Origin: a virus
IMG/VR virus record: IMGVR_UViG_3300037246_001365
Span: 1 to 32,526 of that record
Strand: one strand, 5' to 3'
Length of the DNA: 32,526 bases
Numbering within the stretch: the stretch's first letter is position 1; each line of letters opens with the position of its first letter. A model generated the notes under the pieces. It was not told the DNA's origin. It was given only the letters and a program-made list of their open reading frames with translations, and made no database searches. Positions 8,797 through 28,367 of the stretch are shown here, piece after piece. A program made the translations under genes and the position numbers.

Positions 8797-8818
8797 TTTC
8801 TAATTTTTTAATACACTC

Positions 8819-8849
8819 CAAAGATAAGTATAATTCCCATCAATGCAAA
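8819..8849 (-). promoter_or_regulatory. Bacteroidota-type promoter (TTTG-N19-TATCTTTG)
   Basis: Minus strand: -33 box TTTG (8849-8846), a spacer of exactly 19 bases, then -7 box TATCTTTG (8826-8819), a full match to TAnnTTTG. The predicted start site is about 15 bases before the ATG at 8796. The sequence from -7 upstream is repeated at 19889-19949. Confidence 0.8.
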
Positions 8850-8890
8850 TATTAATTGAATATTAATTGATGTTTTAACATTCTTTAACA
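8820..8890 (-). repeat. Promoter/operator repeat, copy 1 (with 11-bp internal duplication)
   Basis: 71 bases matching 19890-19949, except that ATATTAATTGA is tandemly duplicated here. The minus strand contains the inverted repeat CATCAAT...ATTGATG around the -33 box and the direct repeat TGTTAAAGAA/TGTTAAAACA upstream. This looks like an operator for one phage regulator acting at both promoters. The function is inferred. Confidence 0.75.
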
Positions 8891-9173: not shown

Positions 9174-10562
9174 TTAACTTTTTATAAATTCATCCTTAAT
9201 CGTCTTGCTTACATAAGGTTTCGAACAGCTCAACATCTTCGCAATACCACTTTGCTTAATTCCCTGTTTATACATTCGTAATATCGTTTCTTTTTTCGTT
9301 TCTCCTTTTCCGTATGCAACGCGCTGTAATTCTTTGATCTGTTCTTTGTTTTCAAAGGTTCTCATTGCAGTTTTTAGGAAATAATTGACAAGCTTCTCAG
9401 CTCCTACTAAGTGCTTTAAATCTACACTATAGCCATAATTATTATCGATTCCTCCAAATACATAGTCGATTAATTGAAGTATCAAAGCAAACCTGGGTAG
9501 ATAGGTTTTTAATTTTGAAATGTAATTAACAGTAACAACCGTAAATTTATTATCATTTTGAAGATCAGTTAAATATTTATCTATTTCAAAATACTTATCA
9601 ATTGCTGAATCGGTCATTTGAAATTGAGTAATTTCTGTTTGATTCTCAACCTCAAAATAATAATCGTAAATCTTTTGATAGTATTCTTGTTTTACGGATG
9701 AATCAACATTTTTCCTGGATAGAGGTTTTTTTTCTGTATTTATATCCGTAAATAAGAAACGGTGTAATAATCCATCCGTTTCAGTTATTTTATTTATCTC
9801 TGTTGGTTGGATGGTCCCAATTATGTTAATATTTACCTTGTCAAGCATTATTGGATCGGAGTTGACTCTATTTATAGAATAGAATGAATTATTGAATGAG
9901 GAGAGCCAAAACTGCTTATCATTTGATTTACCAGCCGCTTTATATTGACCCATTGAATTAACCCACGACATTAATTCGTCGTTGAAAGCAAGAATAGAAT
10001 TAGTATTTATGCCATGTACCTTGAATGCACTTTCTACAGTTATATTTTGAACTATAATTTGTTTTAATCGTGGCCTTAGTAATCTTTCTTTAGTCGGATC
10101 TTTTGCTGCCTTCGATTCGTTTTCTTCAAATATTTCAGACTCAATTTTGAAATTATGAAAGAAATCTTTATTTAGATCGATCAATGGATTTAACATATTT
10201 TCAACAGGATGACTTTTGATCGCTCCAGGTTCTGAAACAATTGCAAACCAGAAAAGGGCCGGTGTTGTCCATTTTCCAGCTGCATCTATTCTATTTTTAT
10301 TGCCAGCAATACCACCGATGACAGACATAAGGCTTGTTAAAGTAAAAGCTCTGTCGTAATTTAAAGCGAAATCAAGCACTTTGGCGTAATCCCTTATAAA
10401 TTCTGGGAATATTTCAATTGGAAATTGTATTTTATCCTTGATCTCTTCGGGTTCATTGAACTTGTCATATAATAGTTTTGCATCATCAGTTAAGAATTCG
10501 TATGCTTCGAAAGGATCAAAGCTTACTGTGTCTCCGTTTAAGAATTCGTATTTTTTAGCCAT
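9174..10562 (-). CDS. DUF3987 replicative helicase/primase-type protein
   Basis: 462 residues with DUF3987 landmarks. The first is ALNYDRAFTLTSLMSVIGGIAGN, given here split as ALNYDRAFTL and LMSVIGGIAGN. Next comes a P-loop-like EPGAIKSHP in place of the usual GxGKS, then NSILAFNDELMSWVNSMGQY (Walker B-like acidic DE), NIIGTIQPTEI, and LLHRFLF (arginine-finger-like). The C-terminus is a helix-turn-helix (QSGIAKMLSCSKPYVSKTI). DUF3987 proteins are mobile-element helicase/primase proteins used to start or drive DNA replication. The weak P-loop (GAIKS) is worth noting. Directly upstream lies the BT4734-like gene, the usual partner, and only the stop/start junction separates the two. Confidence 0.8.
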   Translation of the reverse strand: MAKKYEFLNGDTVSFDPFEAYEFLTDDAKLLYDKFNEPEEIKDKIQFPIEIFPEFIRDYAKVLDFALNYDRAFTLTSLMSVIGGIAGNKNRIDAAGKWTTPALFWFAIVSEPGAIKSHPVENMLNPLIDLNKDFFHNFKIESEIFEENESKAAKDPTKERLLRPRLKQIIVQNITVESAFKVHGINTNSILAFNDELMSWVNSMGQYKAAGKSNDKQFWLSSFNNSFYSINRVNSDPIMLDKVNINIIGTIQPTEINKITETDGLLHRFLFTDINTEKKPLSRKNVDSSVKQEYYQKIYDYYFEVENQTEITQFQMTDSAIDKYFEIDKYLTDLQNDNKFTVVTVNYISKLKTYLPRFALILQLIDYVFGGIDNNYGYSVDLKHLVGAEKLVNYFLKTAMRTFENKEQIKELQRVAYGKGETKKETILRMYKQGIKQSGIAKMLSCSKPYVSKTIKDEFIKS

Positions 10563-15574: not shown

Positions 15575-15804
15575 AATATTAATTTATATTCAAATTTATT
15601 TGTATCAGCTAATTCAAAAACCCATTTCAATACCTTTTTAACAAAGACCTTTTCACCAAATTGTTTGTCAAAGCGCCTTTTAGCTTTCATTCTGGCAGAT
15701 GTAAAATTCAAAGCCTTAATTACTTTTCTAATCCCTTTATATTCAAAAGTGAAAGTTTTCTTTTTTGAAACGGGGCCTCTTTTTCTGTATATACTATAAT
15801 CCAT
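15571..15804 (-). CDS. Hypothetical basic protein (77 residues)
   Basis: It starts MDYSIYRKRGPVSKKKTFTF. It is strongly basic (SARMKAKRRFDKQFGEKVFV) with an aromatic C-terminus. The composition suggests nucleic-acid binding, but no fold was recognised. Its ATG overlaps the end of the acyl carrier protein gene (GATGGATTATAG), so it is coupled to it. It may be a partner of the carrier protein or simply an operon neighbour. Confidence 0.55.
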   Translation of the reverse strand: MDYSIYRKRGPVSKKKTFTFEYKGIRKVIKALNFTSARMKAKRRFDKQFGEKVFVKKVLKWVFELADTNKFEYKLIF

Positions 15805-16024
15805 CTGTATATTTTTTTATTATATTAAATAAATCACCAACTATTTTTATGTTTTCAATTTCAATGTCTGGTATTCTAATCTTAAACTCGCGTTCGATCT
15901 CCATTACGATCTCAATAACATCAAGACTGTCAAGTTCTAAGTGTTCTAATTTAGAATCTTTGGTTATGTCTTGGTTAGGAATACCACTTTTTTCACTAAT
16001 AAATTCAATTACTTTTTCTTCCAT
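15794..16024 (-). CDS. Acyl carrier protein (phage-encoded)
   Basis: 76 residues from the ATG at 16024 (MEEKVIEFISEKSGIP); the frame continues upstream to 16060 but only into the end of the ATPase gene. The phosphopantetheine site LELDSLDVIEIVMEIEREF holds the invariant DSL with Ser33. Length, acidity and the four-helix pattern (IPDIEIENIKIVGDLFNII in the last third) match AcpP. Such a protein would be charged with 4'-phosphopantetheine by a host holo-ACP synthase. It lies 10 bases after the SbcC-like ATPase, and no fatty-acid enzyme is visible nearby, so its partner is unknown. It could act in lipid or membrane change, or in protein or tRNA acylation. Confidence 0.88.
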   Translation of the reverse strand: MEEKVIEFISEKSGIPNQDITKDSKLEHLELDSLDVIEIVMEIEREFKIRIPDIEIENIKIVGDLFNIIKKYTDGL

Positions 16025-16034
16025 TATGAAATTT

Positions 16035-18038
16035 TTAAGGTTTTTGATTTTGAATTTCAATAATTCTTTTATTCGTTTCTTCAGGGGTAGGATCTACCTT
16101 TAATTTAGGCCATATTTTATTTACAACCAAATTAATGACCTGAGTATCCATTTGTATGATCTCAGTTACACTTTCCCTATTGTCCAATATTATAGGAGCA
16201 TAAAAATTAAATTTTTCGCTAAAAGTCTTGATTATATCAAGCCCTGCATTTAATTTACTTTCGGTATTTGCATCAGAATAAGGTACACCGTCAATTAATG
16301 CCTTACATGTAGCTTTTTCACCACCATTGTTTTGGATTTCGAATAACTTAAACTTAACAAAACTGAATTTATCATTTACTTTTAATTCTAAGGCTTCATT
16401 TTTTGCCTTTTCATAAGCTTCTATTGCAAATTGATACTGTTCAAGATTTGCTATTTCTTGAGCTTTTGCACTTTCACTTGCTTTTAATTCGTTTATTTGA
16501 GTATCAATACGATCTATTTGCTTTTTGTTTTCTAGTTTTGGTTTTAGTTCATCAATCTTGGATTTAATTTCTTTCTTTTTGGCTTCAAGATCGTGTGTAT
16601 CTACTTTAGGCCCCTTTACAGAATCATAAGCTTTTTTTGCTTTTTCGTGGGCTTCTTTTTTGTGGTTGTATCCAAGATCAATCGAAGGGTCAAAGATCCC
16701 TAATTTAATTAAGTCATTTGATCGATCTTCTGATTTTGCTTTAAGGAGTGTGATTTGCTGCTCTAGTTGTTCAAACATTTCTTCGTTTTGCTCTTTTTTA
16801 GATTCAAATTCTTTTATCTCTTTAGCAAAGCGAGTGCCTTTTAATTTCATTGCTTCCAGACTATCAAGCTTTTCTTTCAAGAAATTAGTTTTCAAATCAG
16901 CATCTATGTTATCAGAATTCAACAACAATTGTTTACAGGTGGGGCATATTTTTTTATCCGGATCAAAAACAAACTGTTTTAAGTTCAGTTCTTTGTATCT
17001 GGCTAAAAGTCCAGCCTTTTTTATACTTAAATCTTCAATGTCTTTTCTCCAGTCTTGAATTTGAACATCTATACTTAATTTTGTTTCACCAAGACTTTTA
17101 ATACCTGTTTGTGCATTTTGCATGTCTTGTCTAATTTCATTTTTATTTTTATCGAAATTAGTTCTTAATTCAAATTCACAGCTATTTAGAGAAGAAAGCA
17201 ATTCATTGACTTTGTTTTGCTCTTCAATTCGATCCTCGTTGAATTTTCTGAAAGCTTTTGACTTGTCGTTTACTTGGGTGTCAATTATAGTAATTTCAGT
17301 TTCATAATTAGCTAATAACTTAGTTAATGAATCCCAGTCAAACACTTCAGGTTTATTTCGATTTGACTGATCAATTCTTGACGGGATCAGTTCAAGTTCT
17401 TCATTTATTTTCTTGATTTTTTTAAGTAGGATCGCTTTTGATTCTTCAATAGATCTGCCAGCTGCTAATGTTTGACTCATTAAAGCAGCCGTTTTGCTGT
17501 CAAGCCCTGCAATTACATCATCTTGTTTGATGCCTCCGATAAGCTCAATAAGCATTTCGCGTTGCTTCTCCCAATGGAGTTTATTAAAATACAATGGATT
17601 TGTGGTAAGTTTAAATAAACCTTCGTTTATTAATGAATCTCTTTTTTGATTGAATTCAGTAATACTAACAGGAATGGTATTCCACTCACAAATAGTTTCA
17701 TTGCCTTTAAATTCAAGCTCTGAACTGCCACGGCGTTTTTGCCACTTTTCACGTAATTTTTTTGATAGAATTATAGTACTATCATTTATTACATACTCTG
17801 CCTCAATTTCAGTTTCGAGTTTTGGATTTGTTTCATTGTTTGAATCTAAAGGTTTTATTTCAAACTTTTGCTCATCTAGCAAGTTTTTGCCAAACAACAA
17901 CCATGTAATAGTTTCAGCAACCGTACTCTTGCCGGTCCTATTAGCACCTTCAATTGTTGTGAATGGATTGAATTCAACTACAAGCTCTCCGATTTTCTTG
18001 TAATTGATAATTTTAATCTTCTTTAAAAATACTCTCAT
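16035..18038 (-). CDS. SbcC/Rad50-like AAA ATPase with zinc hook
   Basis: 667 residues from the ATG at 18038 (MRVFLKKIKIINYKKIGE), the usual start for this family; a longer frame runs from a TTG at 18089. Walker A is EGANRTGKST (30-39). Long charged coiled coils run about 195-345 and 375-560. A CPTC zinc hook (Cys365, Cys368) lies between them. The C-terminal ATPase half holds NNGGEKATCKALIDGVPYSD and a Walker B-like APIILDNRESV (D-N in place of D-E). SbcC/Rad50 ATPases work with a nuclease to process DNA ends. No SbcD is present, so the MBL-fold enzyme is a candidate partner. The 5' end overlaps the regulator gene by 26 bases. Confidence 0.85.
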   Translation of the reverse strand: MRVFLKKIKIINYKKIGELVVEFNPFTTIEGANRTGKSTVAETITWLLFGKNLLDEQKFEIKPLDSNNETNPKLETEIEAEYVINDSTIILSKKLREKWQKRRGSSELEFKGNETICEWNTIPVSITEFNQKRDSLINEGLFKLTTNPLYFNKLHWEKQREMLIELIGGIKQDDVIAGLDSKTAALMSQTLAAGRSIEESKAILLKKIKKINEELELIPSRIDQSNRNKPEVFDWDSLTKLLANYETEITIIDTQVNDKSKAFRKFNEDRIEEQNKVNELLSSLNSCEFELRTNFDKNKNEIRQDMQNAQTGIKSLGETKLSIDVQIQDWRKDIEDLSIKKAGLLARYKELNLKQFVFDPDKKICPTCKQLLLNSDNIDADLKTNFLKEKLDSLEAMKLKGTRFAKEIKEFESKKEQNEEMFEQLEQQITLLKAKSEDRSNDLIKLGIFDPSIDLGYNHKKEAHEKAKKAYDSVKGPKVDTHDLEAKKKEIKSKIDELKPKLENKKQIDRIDTQINELKASESAKAQEIANLEQYQFAIEAYEKAKNEALELKVNDKFSFVKFKLFEIQNNGGEKATCKALIDGVPYSDANTESKLNAGLDIIKTFSEKFNFYAPIILDNRESVTEIIQMDTQVINLVVNKIWPKLKVDPTPEETNKRIIEIQNQKP

Positions 18039-19634: not shown

Positions 19635-19859
19635 TTAAGTTGACATTCTACCTATAATTTGATAATTAACATCTTCGACAATTAATTGCGTGCCCTCTGA
19701 ATACTTCGCTAAATAATTAGCGTTCTCTTTATCTGAATTAAGATAGCCGTTTGACAAATGTTTTATAATTCTTGAAATTACCGAGCGGTTTACTCTTCCT
19801 GAATGAGGGTGAATAACTGTTAAATTAAAAAATTTTGATGTTTCGTTCTTATTTTCCAT
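19635..19859 (-). CDS. Hypothetical protein (74 residues), first early gene after the switch region
   Basis: It starts MENKNETSKFFNLTVIHPHS. GRVNRSVISRIIKHLSNGYL has an HTH-like look, then ENANYLAKYSEGTQLIVEDV and a strand-rich end. A role as a small DNA-binding regulator is possible but not shown. It is transcribed from the promoter at 19889-19919 and followed by a terminator, the same arrangement as the gene at 8551-8796. Confidence 0.6.
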   Translation of the reverse strand: MENKNETSKFFNLTVIHPHSGRVNRSVISRIIKHLSNGYLNSDKENANYLAKYSEGTQLIVEDVNYQIIGRMST

Positions 19860-19888
19860 TTTGCTAATTTTTAATTATTAATACGATG

Positions 19889-19919
19889 TAAAGATAAGTA
19901 TAATTCCCATCAATGCAAA
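19889..19919 (-). promoter_or_regulatory. Bacteroidota-type promoter (TTTG-N19-TATCTTTA)
   Basis: Minus strand: -33 TTTG (19919-19916), a 19-base spacer, -7 TATCTTTA (19896-19889), one base off TAnnTTTG. The predicted start is about 20 bases before the ATG at 19859. It is identical to the promoter at 8819-8849 up to the last -7 base. Confidence 0.75.
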
Positions 19920-19949
19920 TATTAATTGATGTTTTAACATTCTTTAACA
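19890..19949 (-). repeat. Promoter/operator repeat, copy 2
   Basis: 60 bases identical to 8820-8890 apart from the 11-bp duplication there. It carries the inverted repeat CATCAAT...ATTGATG spanning the -33 box and the direct repeat TGTTAAAGAA/TGTTAAAACA. It is likely bound by the same regulator at both sites. Confidence 0.75.
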
Positions 19950-19971
19950 TATCACACCTATGTAAACAAAA

Positions 19972-19987
19972 TGTTCCACGTGGAACG
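19972..19987. promoter_or_regulatory. parS-like ParB-binding site
   Basis: TGTTCCACGTGGAACG contains the perfect 14-base palindrome GTTCCACGTGGAAC. The conserved chromosomal parS consensus is TGTTnCACGTGnAACA, and this site matches 15 of its 16 positions. It stands alone in the switch region between the late terminator and the early promoter. No parA or parB gene is in the window, so host ParB would be the reader. It could instead be an operator for a phage protein. Confidence 0.65.
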
Positions 19988-20017: not shown

Positions 20018-20049
20018 AAAAAACAAAACCCCGAATCAAAGATCCGGGG
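20018..20049 (-). terminator. Late-operon terminator
   Basis: Minus strand: CCCCGGATC, loop TTT, GATTCGGGG (one mismatch in nine), then TTTTGTTTTTT. It closes the late operon after the small membrane protein at 20083. It shares the GATTCGGGGTTTT arm with the other hairpins of this genome. Confidence 0.85.
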
Positions 20050-20082
20050 CACAAAAAAAATCAAAATACAACTACGGAGAAA

Positions 20083-20181
20083 TTACTTATTCTTTTTTAT
20101 TCTTGCAATTAGGTAAAGTGTAAGCATTAAGGCTATAACAAACATGCCAAACTTACATAATTCTATGAGTGTTTGTTCCAT
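20083..20181 (-). CDS. Very small membrane protein (32 residues), possible holin or lysis accessory
   Basis: From the ATG at 20181: MEQTLIELCKFGMFVIALML, then TLYLIARIKKNK. There is one membrane helix and a positively charged tail. A longer frame to 20268 lies within the upstream gene and is not preferred. It starts 2 bases after the preceding stop and is the last gene before the late terminator. Size and topology suit a holin-like or spanin-like peptide. Confidence 0.5.
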   Translation of the reverse strand: MEQTLIELCKFGMFVIALMLTLYLIARIKKNK

Positions 20182-20183
20182 TA

Positions 20184-20663
20184 TTAGAAAATTAGGTTTA
20201 CTATTTTTTGAATATCGATCAAGTCGTATGCTTTCATAGCTCCAAGCATGATCAGCGCAATTAGCCATTTGTATTTTTTAACAATATTTATAAAATCAAC
20301 AGTGTTTTCAAGTTTAGTAACACGACCATTTGTTTTTTTATTTTCCTCAAGAATATCCTTTAACTGAATCCCGATGACTTCAAAATTTGAATTCATCTGT
20401 ATCATTATAGTATTTAATCTTGAATGAATTGAATCATGTTCTAATTCTTCGCGCGTTTTATCTTTCAGATTGTCCATTAATTTTAATATTCTATTGATTC
20501 TTACTATGTTTTTTTGCCTACTTTGTTTGATTCTAGCTAATTCTATTCTATAAACAAACGAATATGAAGCAAAGGCAGTAAAAAAGCCCGCTATGATTTG
20601 AATTTTGTGTAACCAAACAAAGCTAATAAAGCTATTGCAATCGATGTTGATAATTGTATCCAT
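20184..20663 (-). CDS. Membrane protein with central coiled coil, holin-like
   Basis: 159 residues. One membrane segment lies near the N-terminus (about 20-40, IQIIAGFFTAFASYSFVY) and one near the C-terminus (about 131-148, WLIALIMLGAMKAYDLI). A long charged helix between them has heptad character (KKTNGRVTKLENTVDFINIV). The layout resembles phage holin-like proteins. The N-terminal part overlaps the upstream gene by 73 bases, long for this genome, so a later unusual start is possible. Confidence 0.6.
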   Translation of the reverse strand: MDTIINIDCNSFISFVWLHKIQIIAGFFTAFASYSFVYRIELARIKQSRQKNIVRINRILKLMDNLKDKTREELEHDSIHSRLNTIMIQMNSNFEVIGIQLKDILEENKKTNGRVTKLENTVDFINIVKKYKWLIALIMLGAMKAYDLIDIQKIVNLIF

Positions 20664-25333: not shown

Positions 25334-26035
25334 TTATTTTAAATATCTTGCTATTTGTTTTTGTGCATGTTTCTTAAAATTACTATTTAACAATTTAGCA
25401 CTTTCTAGAGCTGCATTATTTACAAATGGATGCTTGTGTTTTAATTCTATTTTTCTATTCTCTTTATAACTAGCAATTGGTGTCATTGCCGGTATTTTTT
25501 TATTTTTTTTCGTCTTACCTATTTTAACCAAGACACCTCTATTGTTTTTCTTAATCAACAAGGGTCTTTGTTTATCTCTTGCCTTTGAAACTCCCACAAA
25601 AAAAGATTTTCCCTTTTCGGCTATAATTGGCTTCTTGCTTCTTTCTGTTAAGTACGAACTCTTAACCAATCCTTTTGATGTTCGTTGATTTTTAGCAGGC
25701 GCATAAGATTTATTATGCAGTGTCCCTGCAAATTGTTGCTGTGCTATTTCAGTACTTGCAACCGATTTACTATCCATGCCTTTCACCATCCCGGCAACGG
25801 CTTTCATTTTTGAAATATCAAAACCTTTTGCTGGTGAATAACCTGAGAATTTACTAAAAAAACTAGCTTTTTTTACGTCAAATTCTTTTCTAGCATGTTT
25901 TTTTAACGTTCTGAATTTAACGTCTTTCGCTGAATCAGTCAAGGTGAATCTGACTGCATTAGGTAGTGCTGATCTATGTAAGCGGCTGAGCTTATGACTG
26001 AAATCGATTAGCTTATCACCTTTGTACATTAACAT
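25334..26035 (-). CDS. Basic tail-completion-like protein (prophage minor tail protein Z-like)
   Basis: 233 residues, very basic (many Lys, Arg, Ser, Ala). NAVRFTLTDSAKDVKFRTLK, KHARKEFDVKKASFFSKF and MKAVAGMVKG resemble GPZ-type minor tail proteins, in which an Ala-rich 'alN.ta...T' helix precedes 'v....i..r'. The C-terminus has KHPFVNNAALESAKLLNSNF, common to tail-completion proteins of the HK97-gp10 type. Its position between NHL proteins and baseplate genes is unusual for GPZ, so the family call is tentative. It overlaps the NHL gene by 1 base. Confidence 0.5.
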   Translation of the reverse strand: MLMYKGDKLIDFSHKLSRLHRSALPNAVRFTLTDSAKDVKFRTLKKHARKEFDVKKASFFSKFSGYSPAKGFDISKMKAVAGMVKGMDSKSVASTEIAQQQFAGTLHNKSYAPAKNQRTSKGLVKSSYLTERSKKPIIAEKGKSFFVGVSKARDKQRPLLIKKNNRGVLVKIGKTKKNKKIPAMTPIASYKENRKIELKHKHPFVNNAALESAKLLNSNFKKHAQKQIARYLK

Positions 26036-27195
26036 TATATATATTTATTTACAAGATTAGTACCTGTAGAATTACCAATATACATTTTATCACCCACATT
26101 GCAAATTGCATGCGGTTGTGTATTTGTTGAAAATTGATCAATATAATTTCCGTTAAAATCGAAAATCTGTACTCTATTATTAAAAAGATCACATACATAA
26201 ATTAACCCATTATATTCGACTATGCTTCTAGGCGTATTAAATTGACCATCTCCTGAGCCATTACTTCCAAATTTAAAAAGAAAAGTGCCGTTTTTATCAA
26301 ATACTTGAATTCTGAAGTTGTTTAAATCGGATACATAAAGATTGTTGTTGATGACATATATTTTTTCTGGTGTATTAAATTGACTATCGCCAGCCCCAGG
26401 GCTTCCGAATTTAGATACGAAATTCCCGTTTAAATCAAATTTTTGGACTCTTTGATTAGTTCCTCCATCACAAACCCACATATTTACATCATCTGTAGCA
26501 ATCCCCTGTGTTTGTGAAAATTGGCCATCACCAGACCCATTTGATCCAAATTGAGAAATATAATTACCACTTAAATCAAATTTCTGAACCCTTTGATTGT
26601 TTGCATCACCTACATATATGAAATTATTTGTAATTGCTATTCCTGTGGTAAACGCAAATTGACCATTTCCAGATCCACTAGTACCAAATTTTAAAATGTA
26701 ATTTCCATTCAAATCTAACTTTTGAACTCGATCATTTGAGGTATCAACTATATATAATTCATCATTAAATTCTATTATTTCTCTTGGAAAATTAAATTCG
26801 CCATCACCAACACCAGAGCTTCCAAAAGAATTAAGAAGATTAGCTGAAAATTCTCCCCTCACAATATACCGACTTACCACTGCATTAGTACCTTGTATCG
26901 AGACAGAAGCATACCACCCAGATGGTATATAATCACTACCTATCATTATAACAGTAAAAAAATTGGTGTCAATATCCGAAATGGTGTCACCATCTTGAAT
27001 TATATCATCATTATTAACGATATAAACAAAACCATTATTCAAGGTTTGTATGTTTACAGCGTGGTTTAAGACTGTTTTTATAGATGAGAATTTTTTTGAT
27101 GATTCAGCAATACGCCAATCATTCATAACCTTAAGCTTTTGCTCATTTGTTAATTCATCTATTTTATATGCTTTTTTTGGCGTTATTATTAGCAT
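26035..27195 (-). CDS. NHL-repeat beta-propeller tail protein, copy 2
   Basis: 386 residues. The N-terminal 120 residues include SSIKTVLNHAVNIQTLNNGF and DYIPSGWYASVSIQG, then five to six NHL repeats of about 44 residues (for example DNRVQ-like 'NNQRVQKFDLSGNYISQFG'). NHL domains are six-bladed propellers that bind proteins, RNA or sugars. In a phage tail operon they are candidates for receptor-binding or tail appendage proteins. The N-terminal module is nearly identical in DNA to that of the next gene (26862-27087 vs 28034-28259), but the propellers differ. The last repeat ends as TNLVNKYI. Confidence 0.75.
   Translation of the reverse strand: MLIITPKKAYKIDELTNEQKLKVMNDWRIAESSKKFSSIKTVLNHAVNIQTLNNGFVYIVNNDDIIQDGDTISDIDTNFFTVIMIGSDYIPSGWYASVSIQGTNAVVSRYIVRGEFSANLLNSFGSSGVGDGEFNFPREIIEFNDELYIVDTSNDRVQKLDLNGNYILKFGTSGSGNGQFAFTTGIAITNNFIYVGDANNQRVQKFDLSGNYISQFGSNGSGDGQFSQTQGIATDDVNMWVCDGGTNQRVQKFDLNGNFVSKFGSPGAGDSQFNTPEKIYVINNNLYVSDLNNFRIQVFDKNGTFLFKFGSNGSGDGQFNTPRSIVEYNGLIYVCDLFNNRVQIFDFNGNYIDQFSTNTQPHAICNVGDKMYIGNSTGTNLVNKYI
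26862..27087 (-). repeat. 226-bp duplicated segment, copy A (in NHL gene)
   Basis: Identical to 28034-28259 by eye except for one base (27064 G versus 28236 T), which changes Asn to Lys in VLNHAV. The flanking propeller DNA is diverged, so this block was duplicated or converted more recently than the rest of the genes. Confidence 0.9.
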
Positions 27196-28367
27196 TATAT
27201 AAATTTTTGAATTCGGTCATTATCATCAGAGGTGTATAGAATTTTGTCTTTCACACAGACAAAAAGCACGTTGTCGAATTGGCCACTACTGACTCCAAAG
27301 CTCCCAAATTTTAAAATAAAATTACCTACTAGGTCAAACTTCTGAATATTATTATTTGTAGAATCAGTAACAAAAATATTAGTTTCATTAATACAAATAC
27401 CACGAACATTATTAAATTCACCATCACCACTACCAATTGACCCAAATTGATCAACATAAACCCCTGATAAATCAAATATCTGAACTCTATTATTGTTCTT
27501 GTCTGTAACAAAAATATTAGTTTCATTAGCATCTAAATCTTCTGGTGCATCAAAAAGTCCATCTGTGCTTCCTGTTGACCCAAATTGATCAACATAAACC
27601 CCCGCTAAGTCAAATATCTGAACTCGGTCATTACCTCTATCTGTAATAAAAATATTAGTACTATTTACAAATATTCCTCTTGGTGCATCAAAAAGCCCAT
27701 TTGTTGTTCCAAAACTCCCAAATTTTGAAACAAAACTACCTACTAAATCAAATTTTTGAACTCTATTATTACCTGAATCTACAACAAAAATATTAGTATC
27801 ATTTACATATATACCTACTGGATTTGTAAAAAGCCCATCTGTAATACCAACACTTCCAAATTGTGAAACATAATTACCGTTTAGGTCAAATATCTGAACT
27901 CTATTATTGTCTCTATCAACAGCAAAGATATTAGTTTTATTAATCGCAATGCCTCGTGGTAAATTAAATTCACCATTTGATGAACCGGTTGATCCCCACT
28001 TCTTTAAAAAATCACCATTAATATCATCAAAAGCAATATACCGACTTACCACTGCATTAGTACCTTGTATCGAGACAGAAGCATACCACCCAGATGGTAT
28101 ATAATCACTACCTATCATTATAACAGTAAAAAAATTGGTGTCAATATCCGAAATGGTGTCACCATCTTGAATTATATCATCATTATTAACGATATAAACA
28201 AAACCATTATTCAAGGTTTGTATGTTTACAGCGTGTTTTAAGACTGTTTTTATAGATGAATATAATAATTTATACTTATTAATATCTACTGAATTTTGCA
28301 CTAATAGAATTTGAGCTGCACTCAATTCGTCAATCTTTTCCGCTAATTCTGGCGTATCTATACTCAT
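27195..28367 (-). CDS. NHL-repeat beta-propeller tail protein, copy 1
   Basis: 390 residues. MSIDTPELAEKIDELSAAQI leads into the shared N-terminal module, then six NHL repeats from about residue 118. Each contains 'RGI..N.TNIFV.D..NNRVQIFDL.G.YV.QFGS'. Repeats two to five are highly alike, with Asn-Thr-Asn-Ile-Phe in most. A closed six-bladed propeller is therefore plausible. It follows the gp48-like gene, the site where Mu-type phages carry their tail-fibre genes, so receptor recognition is likely. It overlaps the next copy by 1 base. Confidence 0.78.
   Translation of the reverse strand: MSIDTPELAEKIDELSAAQILLVQNSVDINKYKLLYSSIKTVLKHAVNIQTLNNGFVYIVNNDDIIQDGDTISDIDTNFFTVIMIGSDYIPSGWYASVSIQGTNAVVSRYIAFDDINGDFLKKWGSTGSSNGEFNLPRGIAINKTNIFAVDRDNNRVQIFDLNGNYVSQFGSVGITDGLFTNPVGIYVNDTNIFVVDSGNNRVQKFDLVGSFVSKFGSFGTTNGLFDAPRGIFVNSTNIFITDRGNDRVQIFDLAGVYVDQFGSTGSTDGLFDAPEDLDANETNIFVTDKNNNRVQIFDLSGVYVDQFGSIGSGDGEFNNVRGICINETNIFVTDSTNNNIQKFDLVGNFILKFGSFGVSSGQFDNVLFVCVKDKILYTSDDNDRIQKFI
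28034..28259 (-). repeat. 226-bp duplicated segment, copy B (in NHL gene)
   Basis: Partner of 26862-27087, offset by 1172 bases. It encodes the module from about SSIKTVLKHAV to VSIQGTNAVVSRYI that joins the N-terminus to the propeller. Confidence 0.9.

Follow-up and report, generated by a model that had tools for sequence, protein, structure and literature searches.

The window, i.e. the whole stretch of DNA that was analysed (32.5 kb; 32,526 nucleotides of IMG/VR record IMGVR_UViG_3300037246_001365), is a linear fragment of a phage genome: its right end interrupts a tail gene and the head/packaging end is missing. Every recognisable gene lies on the minus strand. Read from the right, the tail and baseplate genes give way to small ORFs and a terminator, beyond which lie the parS-like site, the promoter cassette and then the early block (Table 1). 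Based on Pfam and PHROGs matches, the early block encodes an HTH_3 regulator, an SbcC-like protein, RecT, a metal-dependent hydrolase and helicase/primase-type proteins; an acyl carrier protein gene was also found there (15794-16060, minus strand). The first-pass annotation had located the parS-like site in a late/early switch region and had mentioned an origin-like region. The former description holds in outline, with a strong terminator and a promoter separating the tail genes from those for replication and recombination. No origin-like signal was found, and the GC skew keeps its sign across the window.

Table 1. Positions of features at and around the late/early junction, together with the second copy of the promoter cassette.
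Feature	Position	Strand	Basis or detail
Second promoter cassette copy, without parS upstream	8798-8890	-	Internal control
HTH_3 (Xre/Cro-like) regulator in early block, candidate phage regulator	18013-18297	-	Family search
First early gene downstream of promoter, 74 aa, without family match	19635-19859	-	ORF list, family search
Promoter cassette	19868-19950	-	Ends 21 bp before parS
Predicted Bacteroidetes-type promoter of early block, TTTG-N19-TATCTTTAC	19889-19919	-	-33 at 19916-19919, -7 at 19889-19897
parS-type site TGTTCCACGTGGAACG	19972-19987	.	Motif scan; core identical in Bacteroidota chromosomes
Intrinsic terminator closing late (tail) block	20028-20050	-	10-bp stem then T-run; fold -15.7 kcal/mol, z -4.4
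Last late-block ORF before terminator, 61 aa, without family match	20083-20268	-	ORF list, family search

A motif scan confirmed that the site is a near-perfect parS, one end base off and with the full 14-base palindrome, as had been annotated from the letters alone. Compared with TGTTCCACGTGGAACA, the site TGTTCCACGTGGAACG has one mismatch (15/16), keeping one of the two consensus end bases and carrying G for A at the other. The core matches at 14/14 and is a perfect palindrome of two GTTCCAC half-sites (19973-19986), which places the site by sequence among chromosomal-type parS (tGTTYCACGTGRAACa, perfect 14-bp core). The claim that it is the only such site in the window was likewise borne out, as no other match to TGTTCCACGTGGAACA was found at ≤3 mismatches (shuffled sequences give 0.07). 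The site is intergenic in a window of which, by a crude gene call, ∼8% is non-coding. Half-sites were not enriched in the window (GTTCCAC, 2 found and 1.7 expected; GTTTCAC, 4 found and 3.1 expected), and no similarity was found between the junction DNA and known phages.

That the palindrome arose by chance, or acts as a weak second terminator backing up the late one, we regard as quite improbable. It was scored as terminator-like, with a 5-bp stem followed by ATTTTGTTTA, and its selection presumably followed the screening of many windows and motifs; however, its fold is weak (-6.2 kcal/mol, z -1.5) and a strong terminator already stands ∼40 bp before it. Against chance, the expected number of copies of the degenerate core GTTYCACGTGRAAC is 1.3e-4 at the composition of the window (32.5% GC), and the flank and position statistics of viral sites as a class (see below) argue for selection. 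Judged by its sequence, 19972-19987 is a genuine parS of the host type, carried by a phage fragment and beyond chance.

The cassette beside the site has operator-like repeats of its own, comprising two TTTAACAT repeats 10 bp apart (19933-19940 and 19943-19950) and the inverted repeat CATCAAT/ATTGATG (19908-19914 and 19925-19931). Its promoter is predicted from the TTTG / TAnnTTTG consensus, which puts the early start site ∼95 bp downstream of parS. This promoter/operator cassette of ∼80 bp is present twice, 11 kb apart, in copies that differ by an 11-bp insertion; the core promoter is identical at 30/30 positions (second copy at 8820-8849) and the repeat block with TTTAACAT at 32/32. Since the second copy is without the palindrome, parS is not simply the operator of the early promoter, whose own control elements thus stand apart from the palindrome. 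This weakens the alternative that the first-pass annotation had named as refuting its proposal, namely a phage repressor bound to the palindrome. An operator for a phage-encoded regulator that resembles parS by accident would have a candidate ligand in the HTH_3 protein and would be suitably placed upstream of the early promoter, but it would be present in a single copy, missing from the second promoter, and identical to chromosomal parS at 14/14 positions by coincidence. We consider it very improbable indeed.

Host ParB bound at parS could also silence or tune the early promoter, or insulate the early block from late read-through. With the late terminator on one side and the early promoter on the other, the site is suitably located for such a role, and repression by ParB of promoters next to parS has been described in Pseudomonas aeruginosa (PMC5521831; reviewed in PMC7022226). 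In other species, in contrast, loss of ParB seldom alters neighbouring genes (PMC7022226). Because of the short distance to the predicted early start a local transcriptional effect is possible, but it is made less likely by the twin promoter without a site and by the variety of settings in which viral sites occur: those between genes show no single promoter arrangement, and one phi29 site, at 10445, falls where genes 10 and 11 meet. We therefore view a transcriptional role as unlikely.

Bacteroidota are the probable host phylum of the window phage, as suggested by the Bacteroidetes-type promoter, by BT4734-like_N and DUF3987 proteins in the window, and by a 210-kb Chryseosolibacter contig that carries a distant baseplate J relative. 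The pattern TTTG-N19-TAnnTTTR occurs at both near-identical cassettes; the window as a whole has 3 matches (1.06 expected), i.e. no overall enrichment. The two closest relatives were binned in MAGs labelled Chlorobiota and Thioploca, labels that are unreliable as host evidence, and RecT was not found in the two MAGs holding the closest contigs.

Among Bacteroidota genomes, 111 of 118 carried the GTTYCACGTGRAAC core, usually clustered and in one to nine copies, compared with 6 of 118 for a reversed-pattern control. The chromosomal sites flank or adjoin mnmG in 15 of the 16 genomes checked, and a ParB_N protein was found in all 28 genomes tested. The core of the window site, GTTCCACGTGGAAC, is exactly a chromosomal parS of this phylum. 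In 42 chromosomal sites, 61% of sides had T as the base outside the core and 23% had C, and T...G sites exist; as this outer base varies, the T...G ends of the window site are ordinary.

Plasmid-like maintenance had been raised in the first-pass annotation, together with a check for partition genes or an integrase elsewhere on the element. Within the 32.5 kb fragment no ParB_N match was found, and neither ParA nor an integrase was detected among 32 window proteins compared with Pfam or PHROGs, the head/packaging end and the rest of the genome being missing from the record. Plasmid-like maintenance is thus not supported by this incomplete record, in which the parA and parB of a phage-plasmid with its own ParABS were not seen. 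Plasmid prophages such as P1, N15 and the extrachromosomal mycobacteriophage prophages resemble the window phage in having a partition-type site on a phage genome, but they possess their own ParA/ParB and their own centromere, none of which was found in the window.

The search was extended to viral contigs of IMG/VR, where exact TGTTCCACGTGGAACA occurred in at least 120 stretches, compared with 0 for a reversed control palindrome and 1 for a permuted one in which the CCACGTGG core was kept. In 119 unselected matches to the 14-mer, the next outward base was T on 68% of sides, so that the chromosomal consensus was reproduced at a position that was not part of the query. Exact sites lay between called genes in 39 of 106 cases (8.7 expected), a ∼4.5-fold excess obtained with a crude gene caller that underestimates non-coding DNA in GC-rich contigs. 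Within the 14-mer set the intergenic share dropped as consensus end bases were lost, from 19 of 53 sites with both (4.0 expected) to 9 of 42 with one (2.4 expected) and 1 of 18 with neither (0.7 expected). Genes around the 39 intergenic sites were oriented ++ at 15, -- at 9, +- at 9 and -+ at 6. The 50 viral records with parS that were searched for ParB_N (27-351 kb) gave no match, and most of them had a single parS site. Host-type parS is commoner than chance in phage genomes.

The viral nature of ten parS contigs was spot-checked with one protein per contig: the protein was clearly structural (portal, terminase, tail sheath) in three contigs, belonged to a phage family without known function in two, and gave no phage-family match in the other five. 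The isolated phages are free of this weakness. Host contamination is an unlikely source of parS in the viral contigs, as annotated isolated phages carry the site and the long records were without ParB_N. One 29 kb viral record (IMGVR_UViG_3300003650_000024) contained five exact parS over 6 kb and no ParB_N match.

Isolated-phage records containing three parS variants numbered 41, 198 and 92 (overlapping sets), compared with 0 matches for two control palindromes of equal composition. Carriers include phi29, PZA and B103 as well as phages of Listeria, Lactobacillus, Gordonia, Microbacterium, Pseudomonas, Roseobacter and Spiroplasma. There are four exact sites in phi29; the sites in Lpa804, Arian, Woes and DSS3P8 lie between genes, and that of phiPsa374 within the terminal repeat. 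Exact parS is therefore widespread in phages, and the earlier description of phage use of host parS as unusual was wrong. An exception needing explanation is provided by a few Klebsiella phages, mostly jumbo, that carry the motif inside coding genes; the enterobacteria that serve as their hosts are not known to have a chromosomal ParB.

Two further observations concern the range of genomes in which the motif occurs. In the Klebsiella RaK2-like jumbo phages the exact parS core lies in a coding gene that some annotations call a baseplate wedge. At the other end of the size range, an exact parS was found at 693-708 of Spiroplasma phage 4, a single-stranded DNA microvirus of 4.4 kb, and several further Microviridae records also have one.

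Based on the exact core match, the class-wide enrichment over controls and the lack of ParB_N matches in the 50 long carrier records, the proposal that host ParB is used is well supported by sequence, and that part of the first-pass annotation stands without its label of rarity. We consider it likely that 19972-19987 is an orphan parS, the predicted loading site for host chromosomal ParB. The clamp mechanism of ParB has been established by work on bacterial ParABS systems. By extension to the window phage, we infer ParB binding, clamp spreading and a benefit to the phage: host ParB-CTP would load at the site and close into a clamp, the clamp would slide over the adjoining phage DNA and could recruit host ParA/SMC, which might serve to tether, segregate or compact the phage DNA while it replicates or when infection is slow or stalled.

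Several observations count against host ParB loading at this site. Queries with the baseplate J, baseplate hub, RecT and SbcC-like proteins yielded no relative with an alignable junction, as contigs stopped short or none were found; four relatives (L189, L197, L199 and L200) have baseplate proteins 67-82% identical to those of the window on contigs that stop before the parS junction. The other, more distant structural or early-gene relatives (L122-L127 and L190-L195) gave no match to the window variant within 2 mismatches in the available sequence. In addition, the motif is present in some Klebsiella phages, the window has one site only, compared with four in phi29, and the host phylum is itself a probable assignment.

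The closest precedents for an orphan parS are phi29 and its relatives (PZA, B103 and Goe1), which have exact parS sites of the host type and no annotated ParB; the window fragment likewise has a host-type parS and no ParB_N match. Host Spo0J/ParB reportedly helps to bring the phi29 genome into the spore. Four sites and a spore-forming host distinguish phi29 from the window phage, with its one intergenic site and probable Bacteroidota host. Bacteroidota form no endospores, so with such a host the use of the site in the window phage must differ from the spore entrapment of phi29. The chromosomal ParABS of Bacteroidota has an identical GTTYCACGTGRAAC core with similar flanks, but the window copy is single, lies on a phage and has no parAB that we could find in the fragment. 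Otagovirus-type Pseudomonas phages (phiPsa374) have the exact parS in a terminal repeat and differ from the window phage in host and phage family. Gordonia Woes, Lactobacillus Lpa804, Roseobacter DSS3P8 and Spiroplasma phage 4 have it outside annotated genes or in a terminal repeat; together with phiPsa374 these phages represent different hosts and families, some of them multi-site, and are likened to the window phage by site placement.

The data suggest that many unrelated parS phages without detectable ParB borrow the segregation machinery of their hosts. We lean, by a modest degree, towards the view that borrowing of host ParB (and via it SMC or ParA) through an orphan parS is a general strategy in phages of ParB-bearing bacteria rather than a peculiarity of phi29 sporulation. 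The same slight preference applies to its extension to virulent and very small phages and to hosts that never sporulate, the window phage being one instance. The phi29 precedent was already known. New are the probable phylum of the host, the occurrence as a single intergenic copy and, most of all, how broad the class is.

If host ParB loads via such sites, infecting phages would act as clients of the bacterial apparatus that segregates chromosomes and loads condensin. ParB borrowing would, if true, explain a regularity of phage genomes that apparently has not been surveyed; we found no literature survey of host-type parS in phages. The idea is testable in model systems, since parB deletions can be made in several laboratory hosts and the exact site is present in phi29 and in phages of Listeria, Lactobacillus and Pseudomonas.

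Two other regions of the window drew attention during annotation. The minus-strand gene at 320-2764 encodes a phage DEAD/ResIII helicase with an intein (Pfam Intein_splicing, residues 134-426), and a minus-strand ORF of 203 aa (1537-2148) lies in another frame within the intein stretch. At 26035-28367, two adjacent genes contain degenerate 138-bp (46-aa) repeats, by eye of an NHL-like beta-propeller type. A 226-bp block is 100% identical between the two genes, which suggests either that a gene was duplicated recently or that this is a variable region of the tail tip.
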